Below, in pieces: positions 566 through 12,439 of a stretch of DNA of 40,133 nt. Position numbers and translations under genes: made by a program. The stretch is from an uncultured Lachnospiraceae bacterium (lineage in GTDB: Bacteria > Bacillota > Clostridia > Lachnospirales > Lachnospiraceae). The notes below the pieces were generated by a model that was given only the letters and a program-made list of their open reading frames with translations, did no database searches and was not told where the DNA came from. The DNA lies in assembly GCA_946626215.1 (NCBI GenBank), contig CAMOUD010000006.1, forward strand, positions 1-40,133, given 5' to 3'. Numbering within the stretch: position 1 is the first letter of the stretch; every line of letters begins with the position of its first letter.

Positions 566-605
566 AAAAAAACAGAAGCCGGTCTCCCGACTTCTGTCTT
601 ATGCA
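566..605. repeat. 40-bp perfect direct repeat, copy 1 (also a minus-strand terminator downstream of the AlbA_2 gene)
   Basis: aaaaaaacagaagccggtctcccgacttctgtcttatgca is identical to 2215-2254. On the minus strand it reads ACAGAAGtCGGgagaCCGgCTTCTGTTTTTTT. Confidence 0.9.
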
Positions 606-637
606 ATTTCCAGCATACATCTTTGCTGAACGGATGA

Positions 638-2080
638 CTATATTCTTACGAATCGCTGTTTATGACTCCTCGGCTTTTCTGGAATAGTCATCTTAATGAG
701 CCCCTTTTCCAGCAGGGGAGTTACATATGCCTGCATAACATAACTGATGGTCCCTATTCCAAAAAACTCCGCGATTTCCTGCCTGCTCCTGGGGACGTTC
801 AAGAACCGCAGCAATAGTTCCTCCCTGTCTGTCAGGCCTTTTCCCGTGGACTCTGCCTGTAACTCCTTATATAACGTGACGGAGAACGTTCCTCTGTCAG
901 CTTCAAATATAGGCTCTTTCAAACCGGCTTCCGCCATTTCCCTTCTTATGGTAGGAATACCGGAATATCTGTTTTCCGCAATACTCATGACCTCCAGGGC
1001 GTTTACCAGAACCGGATTTCTGGTGTCAGGCTGCATTTTCCCCAATTGATCAATTCGAAGCCTGCCATAGATACCTCCGGGGTTTTTGATTTCTATACGA
1101 TCCGGATACATCAGAATCTGAATCGGCATTCCTTCCGTATGCAGACTGTAATCCCTGTGAACCAGCGCATTCAATATAGCTTCCCTGATTGCTGTAACCG
1201 GGTAATCCTGACGATCTTCTCTTTTTCCTGTATCAGGATTGATAATCGTCTTTGTCCGCATATTCTTTCGAACAAACGCAATTGCGCGCTCCAGCATTTC
1301 AGGAATATTTCCTTCCAGCTTTTGATTATCTGAAAACCGTTCTCCTGAAGGTCCCACCTCTCCTATCGTTTTGCCGGGAAGGACCACTGCTGTTATGCAT
1401 AGCTGCGGAAAAAAAGCCTGAGGATATCTACAGAAGAGCATGACTGCGCTCAGGGTAATCTCCTCCTTTCTCCTTATGCTCATCAGTTCATAAATCATTT
1501 CATCCGGCAAAGAACTCAAATTTGGCTTTTCTGATTTCAGGAGCCCTATATACGAATCCAAAAGCTTTTTATCAAGTACAGCAAAAGAAGCTCTCGGAAC
1601 TGCCCGCACATCATCCTGATATTTTTTCCGAAAAGCTTCATAGCTGTAAACTTCATATTCCGTCATAGGCTCGTCACTATCACCTACACGCACATAGGAG
1701 CCCTTAAGACGCCCTCTTCCAAGGTAATAGCAAGGCCGTTCTGTAATATCCATGCCCGGTATTTCAGCAGACACAAACCATTTTCTGTTTTTTTCCACGA
1801 CTGTCATGAGCGGTCTTACTACAGGATTCATCTGAAGACATTGTTCGTTTATCTTTTTTTGAATATCCTGAGGATCATAAACGCCGCACTCGTTATAATT
1901 ATTGCTCTCATCTACTCCAAAAAGAATGACGCCTCCCTCATCTTGGTTGGAAAAACTGGAAAGCGTATCATATAACCTTTTTGGACAACCAGATTCTGCT
2001 GCCTTCAGTTCGATGGTTTGTGTTTCACATTTGTTGTCCTGTATCGTGTTTAATAAATCAAGGAATTCTTCTTTTGTCAT
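638..2080 (-). CDS. AlbA_2 (Schlafen-type) ATP-binding domain protein / putative HTH transcriptional regulator
   Basis: 480-aa ORF. N-terminal 'QTIELKAAESGCPKRLYDTLSSFSNQDEGGVILFGVDES' resembles AlbA_2; 'TAIREAILNALVHRDYS...PIQILMYPDRIEIKNPGGIYG' resembles the ATPase-like C-terminal HATPase_c_4 region; the C-terminal end is wHTH-like. RBS aaggagg upstream. Confidence 0.85.
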   Translation of the reverse strand: MTKEEFLDLLNTIQDNKCETQTIELKAAESGCPKRLYDTLSSFSNQDEGGVILFGVDESNNYNECGVYDPQDIQKKINEQCLQMNPVVRPLMTVVEKNRKWFVSAEIPGMDITERPCYYLGRGRLKGSYVRVGDSDEPMTEYEVYSYEAFRKKYQDDVRAVPRASFAVLDKKLLDSYIGLLKSEKPNLSSLPDEMIYELMSIRRKEEITLSAVMLFCRYPQAFFPQLCITAVVLPGKTIGEVGPSGERFSDNQKLEGNIPEMLERAIAFVRKNMRTKTIINPDTGKREDRQDYPVTAIREAILNALVHRDYSLHTEGMPIQILMYPDRIEIKNPGGIYGRLRIDQLGKMQPDTRNPVLVNALEVMSIAENRYSGIPTIRREMAEAGLKEPIFEADRGTFSVTLYKELQAESTGKGLTDREELLLRFLNVPRSRQEIAEFFGIGTISYVMQAYVTPLLEKGLIKMTIPEKPRSHKQRFVRI

Positions 2081-2103
2081 TGCTGATCCTCCTTAATTTT
2101 ATA

Positions 2104-2137
2104 TACTAAATATAAATAATTTGGTTTTCAACCTTAT
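2104..2137 (-). promoter_or_regulatory. Candidate promoter of the AlbA_2 gene
   Basis: Minus strand TTGAAA-17 bp-TAGTAT, just upstream of aaggagg and the ATG (approximate coordinates). Confidence 0.5.
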
Positions 2138-2147
2138 TATTTGTCTT

Positions 2148-2193
2148 TTTTAGTTAATTATTTTAGTTTTTAAGGAATTAATTTTAGTTTTTA
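2148..2193. repeat. Phased AT-rich direct repeats upstream of the AlbA_2 promoter
   Basis: attttagttttta occurs at 2160-2172 and 2181-2193 (21-bp period); a partial copy ttttagtt starts at 2148. Confidence 0.6.
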
Positions 2194-2214
2194 TGCTATT
2201 CATCCCCGTCTCAA

Positions 2215-2254
2215 AAAAAAACAGAAGCCGGTCTCCCGACTTCTGTCTTATGCA
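2215..2254. repeat. 40-bp perfect direct repeat, copy 2 (terminator immediately 3' of tRNA-Arg)
   Basis: Identical to 566-605; begins at the nucleotide after the tRNA 3' end on the minus strand. Confidence 0.9.
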
Positions 2255-2328
2255 TGTTCCCGACGGGATTCGAACCCACGACCTTCCGCTTAGGAGGCGG
2301 ACGCTCTATCCTGCTGAGCTACGGAAAC
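2255..2328 (-). tRNA. tRNA-Arg (anticodon CCU)
   Basis: Reverse strand gtttccgtagctcagcaggatagagcgtccgcctcctaagcggaaggtcgtgggttcgaatcccgtcgggaaca. Acceptor gtttccg/cgggaac, anticodon stem tccgc/gcgga, loop CTCCTAA, and TTCGAAT T-loop. Confidence 0.95.
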
Positions 2329-2389
2329 ATTTTTCTGTCTGGTTCCGGAGAGGACAGGTCTGCAGCACTGTCCTCAGCGGAACATATTC

Positions 2390-2470: not shown

Positions 2471-3367
2471 TTATCCCAGGCGGATCTCTCCCTGCATCCA
2501 GACAATGCCCTTGAAGCGCCTGCCCGGTTCCGGCTCCCCGTAAAGGTCCTTCTGGTTGATACAGAGACTGAACACCAGTTCGTTGCAGCTGATCCGCATG
2601 ACCCAGACCTTTTCCAGGGTATAGGGATTTTCCGTCAGCCTGCAGCTGATGATCTCGCCCAGGACGTTGTAGAGGTCACATTCGACCCCGGTGGGCATAA
2701 AGGTGGAATCCACCAGGGAATAGAGATCCTCCTGCCGGCGGATCCTGGCCACCAGGCTGGAATAGACGTCCATGTCTCCCAGGGTCAGGGTCCGCATGGC
2801 GTCCTCATTTCCGCTCCTGGCGTTCTGCATCAGGCTCCGTCTGGTCCGGGACCGTTCCCTGCGGATGGCCTGGTCCTCCTCCGTCTTCAGGATGGGCATC
2901 ATAACGGTGCCCTCCACGGACAGGGCGGACAAAGAAACATTGAAGGCAGTCTCCTCCGGCGGCATATTCTGCCAGGCCGCGCCGGCCTTCAGGAAATCCA
3001 CCACGTTCAGGAGACGGAAGATCAGGGTCACGCCCAGACGGAGATCATCGACGGTCCCGGCAAAGCTGGTCCCGTCGATCCTCTCCTCCACCTCCGTGTA
3101 CTCGGTGGTGGAAATATGGCCGTTATGCATATAGGGGATCACGGCGTCATAGATGAATTCCTCATCCGAATCGTAGGTCCCGTACAGGGCGATCCCGTAT
3201 CCCTCTCCCAGATCCATCCGGAATTCCGTCAGCATCAGGTCTTCGCTGCCGGGCAGAGAGGTATAGGCCCTGTAGGTAGGCTTGCTGATCACATCATCGA
3301 TCAGGTTCAGCCGGTCCAGGTTCTTCATGGTCTCTGAAAAACCGATGGCTCGAAAATAAAGATGCAT
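2471..3367 (-). CDS. DUF3881-like conserved hypothetical protein
   Basis: 298-aa ORF 'MHLYFRAIGFSETMKNLDRL...' resembles a Lachnospiraceae-type uncharacterised family; it follows serS closely in the same orientation. Confidence 0.7.
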   Translation of the reverse strand: MHLYFRAIGFSETMKNLDRLNLIDDVISKPTYRAYTSLPGSEDLMLTEFRMDLGEGYGIALYGTYDSDEEFIYDAVIPYMHNGHISTTEYTEVEERIDGTSFAGTVDDLRLGVTLIFRLLNVVDFLKAGAAWQNMPPEETAFNVSLSALSVEGTVMMPILKTEEDQAIRRERSRTRRSLMQNARSGNEDAMRTLTLGDMDVYSSLVARIRRQEDLYSLVDSTFMPTGVECDLYNVLGEIISCRLTENPYTLEKVWVMRISCNELVFSLCINQKDLYGEPEPGRRFKGIVWMQGEIRLG

Positions 3368-3379
3368 CTGGACTCCGTA

Positions 3380-4711
3380 TCAGTGTCTGGGGACCAGGAC
3401 GGTCTGTCCGCCCATGTAGGGCTGCAGAGTGGCAGGGATCAGGACCGTGCCGTCCGCCTGCAGGTTGTTCTCCAGGAAGGCGATCAGCATTCTGGGAGAA
3501 GCGACAACGGTGTTGTTGAGGGTATGGGCCAGGTACTTGCGGCCGTCCGCGCCCTTGACGCGGATGCCCAGTCTCCTTGCCTGAGCGTCGCCCAGGTTGG
3601 AGCAGGAACCTACCTCAAAATACTTCTTCTGTCTGGGAGACCAGGCTTCCACGTCACAGGACTTGACCTTAAGGTCTGCCAGGTCGCCGGAGCAGCACTC
3701 CAGGGTCCGGACCGGAATGTCGATGCTGCGGAACATTTCCACGGTATAGGCCCACATCTTGTCATACCATTCCATGGATTCCTCGGGACGGCAGACCACG
3801 ATCATCTCCTGCTTTTCAAACTGATGGACTCTGTATACGCCTCTCTCCTCGATGCCGTGGGCGCCGGTCTCCTTGCGGAAGCAGGGAGAATAGGAGGTCA
3901 GGGTCTGGGGCAGGCTTTCCTCGTCCAGCATCTGGCCGATGAACTTGCCGATCATGGAATGCTCGGAGGTGCCGATCAGATAGAGGTCCTCGCCCTCGAT
4001 CTTGTACATCATGGCTTCCATTTCGGCGAAGCTCATGACGCCGGTCACCACGTTGGACCGGATCATGAAGGGCGGGATGTGATAATTGAAGCCCTTGCCG
4101 ATCATGAAATCTCTGGCATAGGCCAGGACCGCGGAATGGAGCCTGGCGATATCGCCCTTGAGATAATAGAAGCCGTTGCCGGACACGCGGCCGGCGGACT
4201 CGAACTCGATGCCGTCGAAGCTGTCCATGATGTCCACATGATAGGGGATCTCATAGTCCGGGACCACGGGCTCGCCGTAGCGCTGGATCTCCACGTTCTC
4301 ACTGTCATCTTTTCCGATGGGGACGGAAGGATCGATGATGTTGGGGATGACCAGCATGATCTCCCGGATCCTGGCATCTGCCTTTGCCTTGATGGCATCC
4401 AGCTCCAGCATCCTGGCTTCATCTGCCGCCACCTCAGCCTTTCTGGCATCGACCTGGGCGGAAAGCCTTTCCGCTTCTTCGTTGTCGCCCTGCTTCTGGG
4501 CCCTCTTCATCATGCCCATGAGCTTGCCGATTTCCTTGGAGACCTTATTCTTACCGGAACGGATGGCGTCTGCTTCCGTCTGGGCCCTGCGGGTCTGGTC
4601 ATCCAGCTCGATGACTTCATCCACCAGAGCCAGCTTGGCATCCTGGAATTTCTTGCGGATGTTCTCCTTGACGACTTCCGGGTTCTCTCTTAAAAATCTG
4701 ATATCGATCAT
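3380..4711 (-). CDS. serS: Serine--tRNA ligase
   Basis: 443 aa; 'MIDIRFLRENPEVVKENIRKK', 'LIGTSEHSMIGKF', 'FRKETGAHGIEERGVYRVHQFEKQE' are class II SerRS motifs. Confidence 0.97.
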   Translation of the reverse strand: MIDIRFLRENPEVVKENIRKKFQDAKLALVDEVIELDDQTRRAQTEADAIRSGKNKVSKEIGKLMGMMKRAQKQGDNEEAERLSAQVDARKAEVAADEARMLELDAIKAKADARIREIMLVIPNIIDPSVPIGKDDSENVEIQRYGEPVVPDYEIPYHVDIMDSFDGIEFESAGRVSGNGFYYLKGDIARLHSAVLAYARDFMIGKGFNYHIPPFMIRSNVVTGVMSFAEMEAMMYKIEGEDLYLIGTSEHSMIGKFIGQMLDEESLPQTLTSYSPCFRKETGAHGIEERGVYRVHQFEKQEMIVVCRPEESMEWYDKMWAYTVEMFRSIDIPVRTLECCSGDLADLKVKSCDVEAWSPRQKKYFEVGSCSNLGDAQARRLGIRVKGADGRKYLAHTLNNTVVASPRMLIAFLENNLQADGTVLIPATLQPYMGGQTVLVPRH

Positions 4712-6600: not shown

Positions 6601-7329
6601 CTATCGGATCGGGTCTTTGGCCGGCGTTCCGGCCTTCCGGGGATACCGGCCCGGCGTCTCTTTTACCTTGCGGATCAGGACCAGGGTCCTGCCGTAGTCT
6701 GTTTCCGGAAGGACAAAGGACTCTGTCCTTTCCACCCTGCCTCCCAGGATCTGTATGGCTCTTTTTCCTTCTTCCAGCTCCTGCTCTGCCTTTTCCGACT
6801 TATAGGCCGCAAAGAGGCCTCCCTTTCTGATAAAGGGCAGGCAGTACTCCGAAAGGACCGCCGCAGAAGCCACGGCCCTGGAACAGCAAAGGTCATACGT
6901 TTCCCTGTGCCTTTTATCCCTGGCCAGCTCCTCGGCTCTGGCATGGATGGTCCTGACATTGGAAAGCCCCAGCTTTTCCGCGGTATCATCCAGGAACCGG
7001 ATCCGTTTGTTCAGGGAATCCATGAGGGTGACCTCCATGTCCGGGAAGGCGATGGCAAGGACCAGGCCCGGAAAACCGGCTCCGGTCCCCACGTCGATCA
7101 TGCGCTTTCCCCGCATTGTTTCACGTGAAACGATCCTGACCAGGGACAGGCAGTCCAGGAAGTGTTTGGTATAGACATCTTCCTCTTCCGTAATGGCCGT
7201 CAGGTTCATGACCCTGTTCCATTCCGTCAGGTTCTCATAATAGGTCCTGAATCCGGCCAGCTGGTCCTCTGTCAGGGAAAGGCCCATGGAAGAAAGCCGG
7301 CGGATAAAATCTTTCTCTGTCTGTGTCAT
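6601..7329 (-). CDS. rsmG: 16S rRNA (guanine(527)-N7)-methyltransferase RsmG
   Basis: 'MIDVGTGAGFPGLVLAIAFPDMEVTLMDSLNKRIRFL' GidB motif. Listed ORF starts at TTG 7353; the internal ATG at 7329 (MTQTEKDF) is an alternative start. Confidence 0.93.
   Translation of the reverse strand: MTQTEKDFIRRLSSMGLSLTEDQLAGFRTYYENLTEWNRVMNLTAITEEEDVYTKHFLDCLSLVRIVSRETMRGKRMIDVGTGAGFPGLVLAIAFPDMEVTLMDSLNKRIRFLDDTAEKLGLSNVRTIHARAEELARDKRHRETYDLCCSRAVASAAVLSEYCLPFIRKGGLFAAYKSEKAEQELEEGKRAIQILGGRVERTESFVLPETDYGRTLVLIRKVKETPGRYPRKAGTPAKDPIR
7117..7132. promoter_or_regulatory. parS-like site inside rsmG
   Basis: TGTTTCACGTGAAACG; 15/16 match to TGTTTCACGTGAAACA. Confidence 0.88.
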
Positions 7330-9665: not shown

Positions 9666-11090
9666 TTATTTTCCCAGACAGAACCTGGAAAAGATCTCTT
9701 CCACCAGGTCATCCTCCACGGCTTCCCCGAGGATCCTGCCCAGGGCCGTGTAGGCGGTCATCAGGTCAATGGAGAAAAAGTCCTCGGACATGCCGTCTTC
9801 AATGCTCCTTCTGACCAGCTCCATGGCCTCCAGGGCTTCCCTGGCGGCTTCCTTGTGACGGAGGTTGGTCAGATAGACCTCCTCCCTCTGCATGATCTCA
9901 CCGGTATGGAAAAGCTCCTCCACAAGGCGGGACAGGCCCTCCAGGCCTTGTCCGGTGGCCAGGGAGCAGGAGAGGAAGGCGGGAAGGCAGTCCTCCGGAA
10001 AAAGGGCCCGGACATCCTCCTCCTTTGTCAGGACCTCCAGATCGTTCTTGTTGAGAAGAACGATGCAGCTGGCCCCCTCCTTCATTCTGCCGGTCAGGAC
10101 CTGGGCGATCTCCCGGTCTTCGCTGGTAACGGGCGTGGAAGCGTCGATCAGGAAGAGGATCAGCTGGGCCTTTTTCACGGCCTCCATGGTCCTTTGGATC
10201 CCGATTTTTTCCACCTTGTCCCTGGTATCCCGGATCCCGGCCGTATCCGTCAGATTTAACAGGATCCCGGAAAGGCGGACCGATTCCCTCAGGGTATCCC
10301 GGGTGGTCCCGGCCACGTCCGTGACAATGGCCAGGTCCTCCCCGGCCATGTGGTTCATCAGAGAAGACTTGCCCGCGTTGGGCTTGCCGACGATGACAGT
10401 AGGGATCCCGTCCTGCAGGAGCCTTCCCTCATCGGCATGGTCCGTCAGCTCCCGAAGACGCGTGGTGACCTCCAGGCAGACACCGTCCAGTCTTTCCGGA
10501 TAGCCCTCCAGGTCATAGGAGTCCGGATCGTCCAGGGCCGATTCAATGAAGGCGATCTCATAGAGGATCCTGGCCCGGAGGTCCCTGACGATATCCGACA
10601 CGGCGCCCCGTAGCTGGGCCAGGGAGTTTTTCCTGGCAAATTCATTTCTGGACCCGATCAGGTCCATGACCGCCTCCGCCCTGGCCAGGTCGATCCTCCC
10701 GCCCAGAAAGGCCCGCCTGGTGAACTCACCGGGCTCCGCCATCCTGGCCCCCTTTTTCAGGACCAGGTCCAGGACCCTGTGCATGATATAGATCCCGCCA
10801 TGGGTATTGATCTCCACCGTATCCTCCGTGGTATAGGAGTGGGGAGACCGCATGACGGACACCATGACCTCATCGATCAGGGTATCCCCGTCCACGATAT
10901 AGCCGAAGCGGATGGTCCCGGAGGCGTGAGAGGAGAGGGAATGTTCCTTCTTTCCGTTTATGTAGATTTCAGACCCGATCTCGATGGCCCTGTCTCCGCT
11001 GAGACGGATGATGCCGATGCCGGCCTCCGACATGGCCGTGGCCGCGGCCGCGATGGTATCGGACCTGTCCTGGTTGAATGTAAGCGCCAT
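9666..11090 (-). CDS. mnmE: tRNA uridine-5-carboxymethylaminomethyl(34) synthesis GTPase MnmE
   Basis: 'DTIAAAATAMSEAGIGIIRLSG', G1 'GKPNAGKSSLMN', 'DVAGTTRDT', C-terminal 'EEIFSRFCLGK'. Start placed at MALTFNQ because gggaggctgt ATG gives an RBS. Confidence 0.96.
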   Translation of the reverse strand: MALTFNQDRSDTIAAAATAMSEAGIGIIRLSGDRAIEIGSEIYINGKKEHSLSSHASGTIRFGYIVDGDTLIDEVMVSVMRSPHSYTTEDTVEINTHGGIYIMHRVLDLVLKKGARMAEPGEFTRRAFLGGRIDLARAEAVMDLIGSRNEFARKNSLAQLRGAVSDIVRDLRARILYEIAFIESALDDPDSYDLEGYPERLDGVCLEVTTRLRELTDHADEGRLLQDGIPTVIVGKPNAGKSSLMNHMAGEDLAIVTDVAGTTRDTLRESVRLSGILLNLTDTAGIRDTRDKVEKIGIQRTMEAVKKAQLILFLIDASTPVTSEDREIAQVLTGRMKEGASCIVLLNKNDLEVLTKEEDVRALFPEDCLPAFLSCSLATGQGLEGLSRLVEELFHTGEIMQREEVYLTNLRHKEAAREALEAMELVRRSIEDGMSEDFFSIDLMTAYTALGRILGEAVEDDLVEEIFSRFCLGK

Positions 11091-11172
11091 ACAGCCTCCC
11101 TTCTGCTTCCTCTTCCTTCTGTTCCTGTTCAGTTCCCGGTCTTGTCCATTCACCTCTTATCAGCATATGAAG

Positions 11173-11215
11173 AAGGAAGCGGTTATTCTCCATCATAGAA
11201 AATAACCGCTTCCTT
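11173..11215. terminator. Strong perfect-stem hairpin between jag and mnmE (terminator/attenuator candidate)
   Basis: AAGGAAGCGGTTATT (11173-11187) and AATAACCGCTTCCTT (11201-11215): 15-bp perfect stem, 13-nt loop; followed by cttctt on the minus strand and ttc on the plus strand. Confidence 0.6.
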
Positions 11216-11248
11216 TTCAACTCTGTTTCTTTATTTCCGGGTCAGGGC

Positions 11249-12439
11249 TCACTCCTGAGGATCCGCGGGCGTTTCCGCCGGTGCGGGTGCCGGCTTTTCC
11301 GCAGGGGCTTCCTGAACGGGAGCCTGAGGCTTTCTTTCGCCCCTGTCCCTGTACTCAAAGCGTCTGCCGCCGCCGATACCGCGGGGCTGCTTCTTCAGGG
11401 CTACCACGACTCTGCGGAAGGGCTCTTCGCCTTCGCTGTAGGTCGTCACGAACCTGTCGCTCTGGAGGGCGGAATGGATGATCCGTCTCTCATAGGGGTT
11501 CATGGGCTCTAAGGTAACGGGCTTTCTGCCCCTCTTGACCTTGGAAGCAATGTTCCTGGCCAGGTTCTCCAGGGTCTGCTTTCTGCGTTCCCTGTAGTTT
11601 TCCGTATCGGCCTTGACGTGGATATATCCGTCAATGCCCTTGTTGATGACCAGGGATACCAGGTACTGGAGGGAATCCAGGGTCTGGCCTCTCTTGCCGA
11701 TCAGCATGCCCATGTCGTCCCCTTCCATGTTGACGGTCAGGGTGCCGTCTTCCTGGTCATAGGTGGTGGAGACATCGACCTTAAGGTTCATGGCCGCGAA
11801 GACATCCCTGAGGAAGGTCTGGGCCTTGTCCTGGATGACGGAGATCTGATCCTCTGTCAGGACAGGAGCGTCCGCCTTCTTTTTGGACTCTTTGCGGGGC
11901 TGCTCGGCGCTCTGTCTGGTCTCGGCAGCGGGAGCGGCCTGTTTGTCGGCATTCTTTTTCCGGCGATTGCGGTTCCGGTTCCTCCGTCCGCCTTCCTTCT
12001 TTTCAGGCTTCTGGACGGGAGCTGCTTCCTCAGCCGGCTGGGCGGCTTCCGCGGGAGCTTCGGCTGCGGTCTCGGCAGGAGCAGGCTTTACAGCCTTCTC
12101 CTCTGCCTTCTTTTCCGGTTTTCTTTCTGTCTTCTTTTCCGCGGGCTTTGCGGCTGCTTTTCTTTCTTCCTTAGCGGGAGCGGCTGCTTCTTTCTTTTCC
12201 TGCACCCGCTTTTCTGCCTTGGTCAGCACATCGCTCAGAATCGCTTCCGCGGCATCGGAAGCTGACTTGGGCCTTGCCTTGATCCTGGCAGGCCTGGCAT
12301 TGAATCCGAGGAAGCCGCGGCTGCCCTGATCAATGACTTCATAATCCAGGTTCTGGCTGGTAACGGAAAGCTGCACGCAGGCTGCCGTAATGGCATCCTG
12401 CAGGGTCTTGCCTGTAGCCTCAATATATTCCTGAGACAT
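11249..12439 (-). CDS. jag: Jag/KhpB RNA-binding protein (Jag_N, KH and R3H domains)
   Basis: N-terminal 'EATGKTLQDAITAACVQLSV...GSRGFLGFNARPARIK'; KH 'MGMLIGKRGQTLDSLQYLVSLVINK'; R3H 'LEPMNPYERRIIHSALQ...TYSEGEEPFRRVVV'. Confidence 0.95.
   Translation of the reverse strand: MSQEYIEATGKTLQDAITAACVQLSVTSQNLDYEVIDQGSRGFLGFNARPARIKARPKSASDAAEAILSDVLTKAEKRVQEKKEAAAPAKEERKAAAKPAEKKTERKPEKKAEEKAVKPAPAETAAEAPAEAAQPAEEAAPVQKPEKKEGGRRNRNRNRRKKNADKQAAPAAETRQSAEQPRKESKKKADAPVLTEDQISVIQDKAQTFLRDVFAAMNLKVDVSTTYDQEDGTLTVNMEGDDMGMLIGKRGQTLDSLQYLVSLVINKGIDGYIHVKADTENYRERRKQTLENLARNIASKVKRGRKPVTLEPMNPYERRIIHSALQSDRFVTTYSEGEEPFRRVVVALKKQPRGIGGGRRFEYRDRGERKPQAPVQEAPAEKPAPAPAETPADPQE

Follow-up and report, generated by a model that had tools for sequence, protein, structure and literature searches.

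A single foreign gene encoding an AlbA_2 regulator was, with high confidence, inserted behind the gene for tRNA-Arg(CCT) in an uncultured Lachnospiraceae bacterium, where it lies between two identical 40-bp terminator copies. The locus belongs to a window of 40,133 nucleotides (contig CAMOUD010000006.1, positions 1 to 40,133), which is the whole stretch of DNA analysed here and to which coordinates refer unless another locus is named. As a whole, it is best read as a horizontally acquired, one-gene, integrase-less islet bounded by attachment sites and similar to a CIME (cis-mobilizable element), and we give this reading an even chance of being correct; a site-specific mechanism of insertion is held with the same middling confidence.

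Results

The direct repeat proved to be exact, as originally predicted: positions 566-605 and 2215-2254 are identical at 40 of 40 bases, and a perfect match of this length is not due to chance. When up to three mismatches were allowed, the repeat core was found at only two sites in the 2.59-Mb genome, namely the two ends of the islet, and a 31-mer from it had no match beyond the source genome in 397 sampled genomes of the family, which rules out that the 40-mer is a dispersed repeat. A 26-mer of the terminator was likewise unmatched in viral contigs, and in none of these three collections (own genome, viral contigs and 397 family genomes) was another copy of the putative att found. Both copies are terminator-like on the minus strand, with T tails present, and each folds at -21.2 kcal/mol, with z-scores of -6.9 for the left copy and -5.9 for the right, beating all 200 shuffled sequences.

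The right copy (2215..2254, minus strand) is the terminator of tRNA-Arg(CCT), as the combined results of ARAGORN, the repeat search, folding and the terminator scan confirm. The tRNA itself is intact and was placed by ARAGORN at 2254..2329 on the minus strand; position 2255 is the last base of its acceptor stem and discriminator, and the repeat begins at the next base. The repeat contains no tRNA sequence and corresponds to the terminator rather than to the tRNA 3' end, in agreement with the original prediction. The left copy (566..605, minus strand), identified by the repeat search, fold and terminator scan as an intrinsic terminator behind the AlbA_2 gene, starts 32 bp past the point where the 480-aa ORF stops and is able to act as the terminator of this gene.

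Between the two copies, which are spaced by 1649 bp, there is one AlbA_2 ORF (638..2080, minus strand) with 32 bp and 134 bp of non-coding DNA, the latter being its promoter/operator region (2081..2214, minus strand, 22% GC; composition and promoter scan). Integrase, transposase, relaxase and conjugation genes are all absent from the islet, which bears out the predicted lack of an integrase or transposase with the gene, and the draft genome (90% complete) contains only two tyrosine recombinases, both Xer-like. Integration of the dif/Xer type was considered and rejected, the repeat being by eye unlike a dif site. The tRNA has a promoter of perfect consensus, TTGACA-16-TATAAT, at 2417-2390 on the minus strand (promoter scan), and on its 5' side lies its conserved neighbour, a DUF3881 gene (2471..3367, minus strand; Pfam and genus synteny), which together with serS marks the orthologous locus. 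At the other end, positions 1-565 hold no recognisable gene, only a single 116-aa ORF without a Pfam match, and no real relative of this segment was found among 62 genomes of the genus.

Only 565 bp of contig precede the left copy, and the assembly is a draft of 243 contigs, circumstances in which two terminator-sharing loci might have been joined artificially. We consider such an artefact of the metagenome draft highly improbable, since the 40-mer is on no other contig, so that there is no second locus to confuse, and since homologues elsewhere also show a compact single-gene unit.

The AlbA_2 gene has a GC content of 43.8% and a GC3 of 43.7%; GC3 of the DUF3881, serS, parB and gyrB genes of the window is 78-80%. 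Judged by this composition, the gene is foreign to the host genome. The gene order serS-DUF3881-tRNA-Arg(CCT) is widely kept in the 62 genus genomes searched, and the DNA behind the tRNA varies by species in the readable loci, with terminators other than that of the window; at some loci kilobases separate the tRNA from DUF3881, and in several cases the contig ends just past the tRNA. In every genus relative inspected the AlbA_2 gene is absent from this locus, hence the gene with its two terminators is not a common possession of the close relatives. Close homologues in these 62 genomes are limited to G066 (77%) and G015 (49%), on other contigs and at unrelated sites; the idea that the one in G066 is carried by a tRNA-Arg element lying 24 kb away was rejected because an integrase is absent there and carbohydrate genes surround it. 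In the comparison with relatives suggested in the original prediction, the gene is missing from this site, and no empty site carrying just one terminator turned up among the inspected relatives, all of which are of other species. Overall, the predicted integration next to a tRNA is supported as the insertion of one foreign gene.

The same tRNA is accompanied by partial copies in the genus. Isolated 5' halves of tRNA-Arg(CCT), 34-41 nt long and stopping at the anticodon loop, are found near the full tRNA, mostly about 35-250 bp upstream of it (loci L026, L031, L033, L183, L185, L187 and L198) and once downstream (L194), and this looks like anticodon-loop integration. In three species (L031, L185 and L187) genes for replication-initiator-like and ParA proteins lie directly behind the tRNA, and in a fourth (L027) a tyrosine integrase gene lies 261 bp behind it. 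One variant of the tRNA is base-identical across many species of the genus (for example, L023, L026, L028, L191 and L192) and another differs between species; a horizontal spread of the tRNA on mobile elements is possible.

These partial tRNA-Arg copies beside the full tRNA, common as they are, fit another origin of the repeat, in which tRNA-Arg was duplicated in tandem with its terminator, and only the terminator of the second copy survived after its tRNA disappeared or gave way to the AlbA_2 gene. Moreover, the six bases that border the left copy on the outside agree with the tRNA 3' end at four positions (GGAA in GGAAAT versus GGAACA). However, this match is weak, and no tRNA remnant is detectable in positions 1-565 or in the non-coding DNA of the islet, so that we find a lost tandem tRNA quite improbable. 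We also rejected the idea that DNA on the 5' side of the tRNA had been duplicated in tandem, an 11-bp match, AGAGGACAGGT, at about 545 and 2350 being unconvincing (p 0.04 versus shuffles).

The 480-aa product was confirmed by Pfam as an AlbA_2/Schlafen-type protein with a GHKL-type ATPase domain. Its SLFN_AlbA_2 (48.4 bits), HATPase_c_4 (88.7 bits) and Fic-like_C (38.1 bits) domains are all above the cut-off, the last being a C-terminal winged helix; the presence of both former domains together with the winged helix places the protein in the SLFN_AlbA_2/HATPase_c_4 regulator family. An alignment of 49 homologues shows E19, E24 and K26 in the AlbA_2 domain to be invariant, and likewise E300, N304, H308, R309 and D310, which resemble the N-box of GHKL proteins; ATP binding can be expected of the protein. 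The structure model (mean pLDDT 80) matches the fold of 3LMM, its N-terminal domain that of 2KYY and, more weakly, Schlafen N-terminal domains (7FEX and 7CUX). A second, distant AlbA_2/HATPase-type protein is encoded in the source genome (G000:C124:362-673), with 36% identity over the ATPase part.

Eighty homologues with 57-76% identity were collected from several families of the Bacillota and one actinobacterium; the homologues are orphans and lie scattered among gut bacteria. Their hosts are Lachnospiraceae, Oscillospiraceae, Mogibacterium, Erysipelotrichaceae, Selenomonadaceae, Acidaminococcaceae and one member of the Eggerthellaceae. In the tree of homologues host groups are interleaved, for example, a member of the Erysipelotrichaceae stands beside a Mogibacterium, and Selenomonadaceae fall inside lachnospiraceal clades, although many hosts are metagenome bins, and single placements may reflect binning errors. 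Many pairs of loci that are 84-99% identical at the DNA level have in common only the gene with about 60-165 bp of promoter DNA before it and 0-45 bp after it (L065/L082, L066/L069, L066/L082, L069/L082, L044/L047, L052/L058, L074/L083, L075/L077 and L071/L092). The left ends of the unit differ between copies, and L066 is devoid of the operator hairpin described below; with ends so variable, a transposon with fixed ends is ruled out. An origin from a phage or virus was rejected as well, since no viral contig encodes a relative and the terminator 26-mer is unmatched there; three matches of 54-66% fall in unannotated faecal 'Bacteriophage sp.' scaffolds of uncertain origin. The pattern of shared sequence indicates that the gene travels by itself, as a self-contained unit that probably regulates its own expression.

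The upstream region of this unit carries a conserved array of iterons. Copies of AACTNAAA upstream of the start codon average 3.2 per locus, compared with 0.2 in shuffled sequences and 0.2 downstream, and at least three upstream copies were found at 49 of 78 homologous loci. In the window three iterons of the form AACTAAAA, located by the motif count in homologues at 2182..2189, 2161..2168 and 2148..2155 on the minus strand, stand ahead of the probable -35/-10 promoter of the AlbA_2 gene, TTGAAA-17-TAGTAT, at 2131-2103 on the same strand (promoter scan). An exact operator hairpin, GGAACTCAAAT-N-ATTTGAGTTCC, is present in 4 of 12 tested genomes, as a single copy in each. Other upstream repeats were seen in two Mediterraneibacter loci (L105 and L114), where an alternative array of TTAGATTC has 8-10 matches, and in L116 (AGTACAAA). 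Such lineage-specific repeats would be expected if the operator and the winged helix evolve together. The protein probably binds its own promoter, and autoregulation through a private operator, which fits both the iteron arrays and the single-copy hairpin, is the probable mode of control.

Direct repeats are found at few of the homologous loci. Within 500 bp on either side, repeats with a score of at least 25 were detected at 4 of 78 AlbA_2 loci, the window included, and in 9 of 1226 control spans. As most homologues have no flanking repeat, the 40-bp repeat records the particular insertion event in the window and is not a property of the AlbA_2 gene. Individual cases are diverse. In L116 (Paraeggerthella hongkongensis) the long flanking repeats were discounted, for they belong to a palindromic family dispersed through the genome, with more than 40 matches; one contig has three long members of it, and AlbA_2 lies between two of these. 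In L104 (Selenomonas felix) the coding sequence that follows AlbA_2 is probably mtnA, and a diverged piece of it recurs ahead of AlbA_2; in L111 an 84-bp flanking repeat ends inside a hairpin arm; and in L044 a short 19-bp repeat lies in the left arm of the terminator of the upstream gene.

The unrelated duplications at L104, L111 and L044 lend weight to the main rival of the islet, a recombination accident without a site-specific recombinase; both a lost tandem tRNA and a misassembly are less likely than this. Here a homologous, template-switching or microhomology-mediated repair event would have attached foreign DNA downstream of the tRNA, with the hairpin terminator copied or crossed over and the repeat left as a by-product. 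It is consistent with the boundaries of the mobile unit, which vary between homologues without fixed ends, and with repeats scoring at least 15 at 8 of 78 AlbA_2 loci versus 17 of 1226 control spans, where, however, the control spans are not independent and several of the AlbA_2-locus repeats are the iterons of the gene itself. On the other hand, the 40-bp repeat is free of errors and matches the terminator unit almost exactly, whereas microhomology usually leaves matches that are shorter and less clean. We regard the accident as possible, though on the unlikely side.

Islets without an integrase were observed behind rpsI in other genomes of the Lachnospiraceae. In G083 (locus L257, reached via the homologue L065) about 96 bp comprising the rpsI 3' end, spacer and terminator occur in three copies with 95% identity (4129-4245, 6866-6961 and 10235-10330 of that locus). 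They delimit a first islet with genes for ferredoxin-like, PadR regulator and flavodoxin-like proteins and a second one with genes for an AAA_14/DUF4143 ATPase and an AbiTii protein, neither with an integrase; the last repeat directly precedes an AlbA_2 unit (10495-11934), which has the repeat on one side only. In G092 (L259, 2027-3603) the native rpsI repeat and, about 1.5 kb further on, an incomplete second copy enclose a single gene for an HTH, HATPase (GHKL) and DUF4325 protein, with GCGAATAAAAA repeats upstream, in parallel to the islet of the window. A common rpsI integration of AlbA_2 itself in L065, L069 and L082 was rejected: the unit stands straight after rpsI in L069, after the stacked islets in L065, and after a mobile element and an rpsI-like end in L082. 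At those loci it may simply have been resident beforehand.

A broader generalisation from these loci, which we regard as rather unlikely, is that terminator-bounded one-gene cassettes exist in the Lachnospiraceae. Small self-regulated genes, such as AlbA_2-GHKL-winged helix and HTH-GHKL-DUF4325 (in G092), would be placed behind housekeeping genes at terminators by a recombinase acting in trans, and each insertion would duplicate the terminator, leading to tandem stacking as at rpsI in G083.

The original prediction also allowed for a function in defence, which is so far no more than a lead. The gene is an orphan: nearest neighbours of the homologues do not recur, and few defence genes are among 114 of them. 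PADLOC matched the protein only via parts of the longer pAgo and Aga models, with no full-length match to a defence gene. AlbA_2 domains occur as fusions to some pAgos (PMC6299218); an RNA-cleaving, Schlafen-like role in stress or against phages is only a guess. In L066 the gene next downstream of AlbA_2 resembles hsdM, which encodes the methyltransferase of type I restriction-modification systems.

Discussion

The site-specific islet reading is favoured because the repeat is perfect and unique in the genome, around a gene of alien composition, because the DNA behind the tRNA differs among the inspected species despite the conserved serS-DUF3881-tRNA order, and because the family tends to travel as gene plus iteron promoter, and the integrase-less anatomy because of the precedents behind rpsI in G083 and G092 and of the CIMEs already described. 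Several observations speak against it. The repeat is without tRNA sequence, unlike that of classical tRNA islands, and the element ends at the relatives' tRNA-Arg stop at the anticodon loop, which is a different site. In addition, there is no integrase, no att match and no empty site, most homologues are without a flanking repeat, and the AlbA_2 unit of G083 has the rpsI repeat on one side only.

Under the preferred reading of an att-bounded islet, a self-contained AlbA_2 gene with its own iteron promoter would have been acquired horizontally and inserted directly downstream of the tRNA-Arg(CCT) terminator, leaving a 40-bp terminator copy at the far end. The two repeats would then be attL and attR of a minimal, integrase-less CIME-like element, whose recombinase either acted from another place or has been lost in the meantime. 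The winged helix may bind the iterons and control AlbA_2 expression, while the tRNA terminator would insulate the gene from transcription of the tRNA and the second copy would end the AlbA_2 transcript.

Should the repeats prove to be attachment sites, the islet would be near the smallest possible integrative element, with one gene, a promoter and a terminator doubling as att, and with its mobility supplied from outside. Such islets are missed by integrase-based searches, as the literature on CIMEs notes. The AlbA_2 regulators emerge as bare 1.6-kb units that bring their operator along when they pass from one bacterial family to another, and the question is raised whether such an orphan is kept by defence, stress response or selfish spread.

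CIMEs are defined as cis-mobilizable elements derived from an ICE or IME (PMC7563491, PMC5704250); in streptococci they are integrase-less, att-bounded, 1.2-13 kb long and arranged in tandem at several sites, of which rpsI is one (PMC7563491). The islet of the window, with 1649 bp, falls within this size range, and like a CIME it has direct repeats at both ends (putative attL and attR), cargo without integrase or conjugation genes between them, and a position 3' of a conserved gene. Unlike in a CIME, the repeat consists of nothing but a terminator and lies outside the tRNA, the sequences searched gave no related ICE, IME or att match, and the cargo is a single gene whose homologues are usually without repeats. 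With the tRNA-associated genomic islands of the Islander type (PMC4383910) it shares insertion directly at a tRNA gene; however, the islet has neither of their classical marks, a displaced tRNA fragment at the far end and a tyrosine integrase, and the tRNA is untouched.

The N-terminal domain appears related to that of the mammalian Schlafen RNase SLFN13, as the weak fold matches to 7FEX and 7CUX suggest. Residues E205 and E210 of SLFN13 are essential (PMC5862951), and their spacing equals that of the invariant E19 and E24, whereas the third acidic residue is unmatched in this comparison; the N-terminal nuclease domain of SLFN13 stands without the GHKL-type and winged-helix domains of the window protein. 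Among the closest known systems are the SLFN_AlbA_2/RecG-C-like ATP-binding regulators (PF04326 and PF13749; solved structures 3LMM and 2KYY), which we take to be COG2865 and which have both domain order and fold in common with the window protein. To these regulators the family described here adds the conserved iteron promoter and the record of repeated one-gene transfer.
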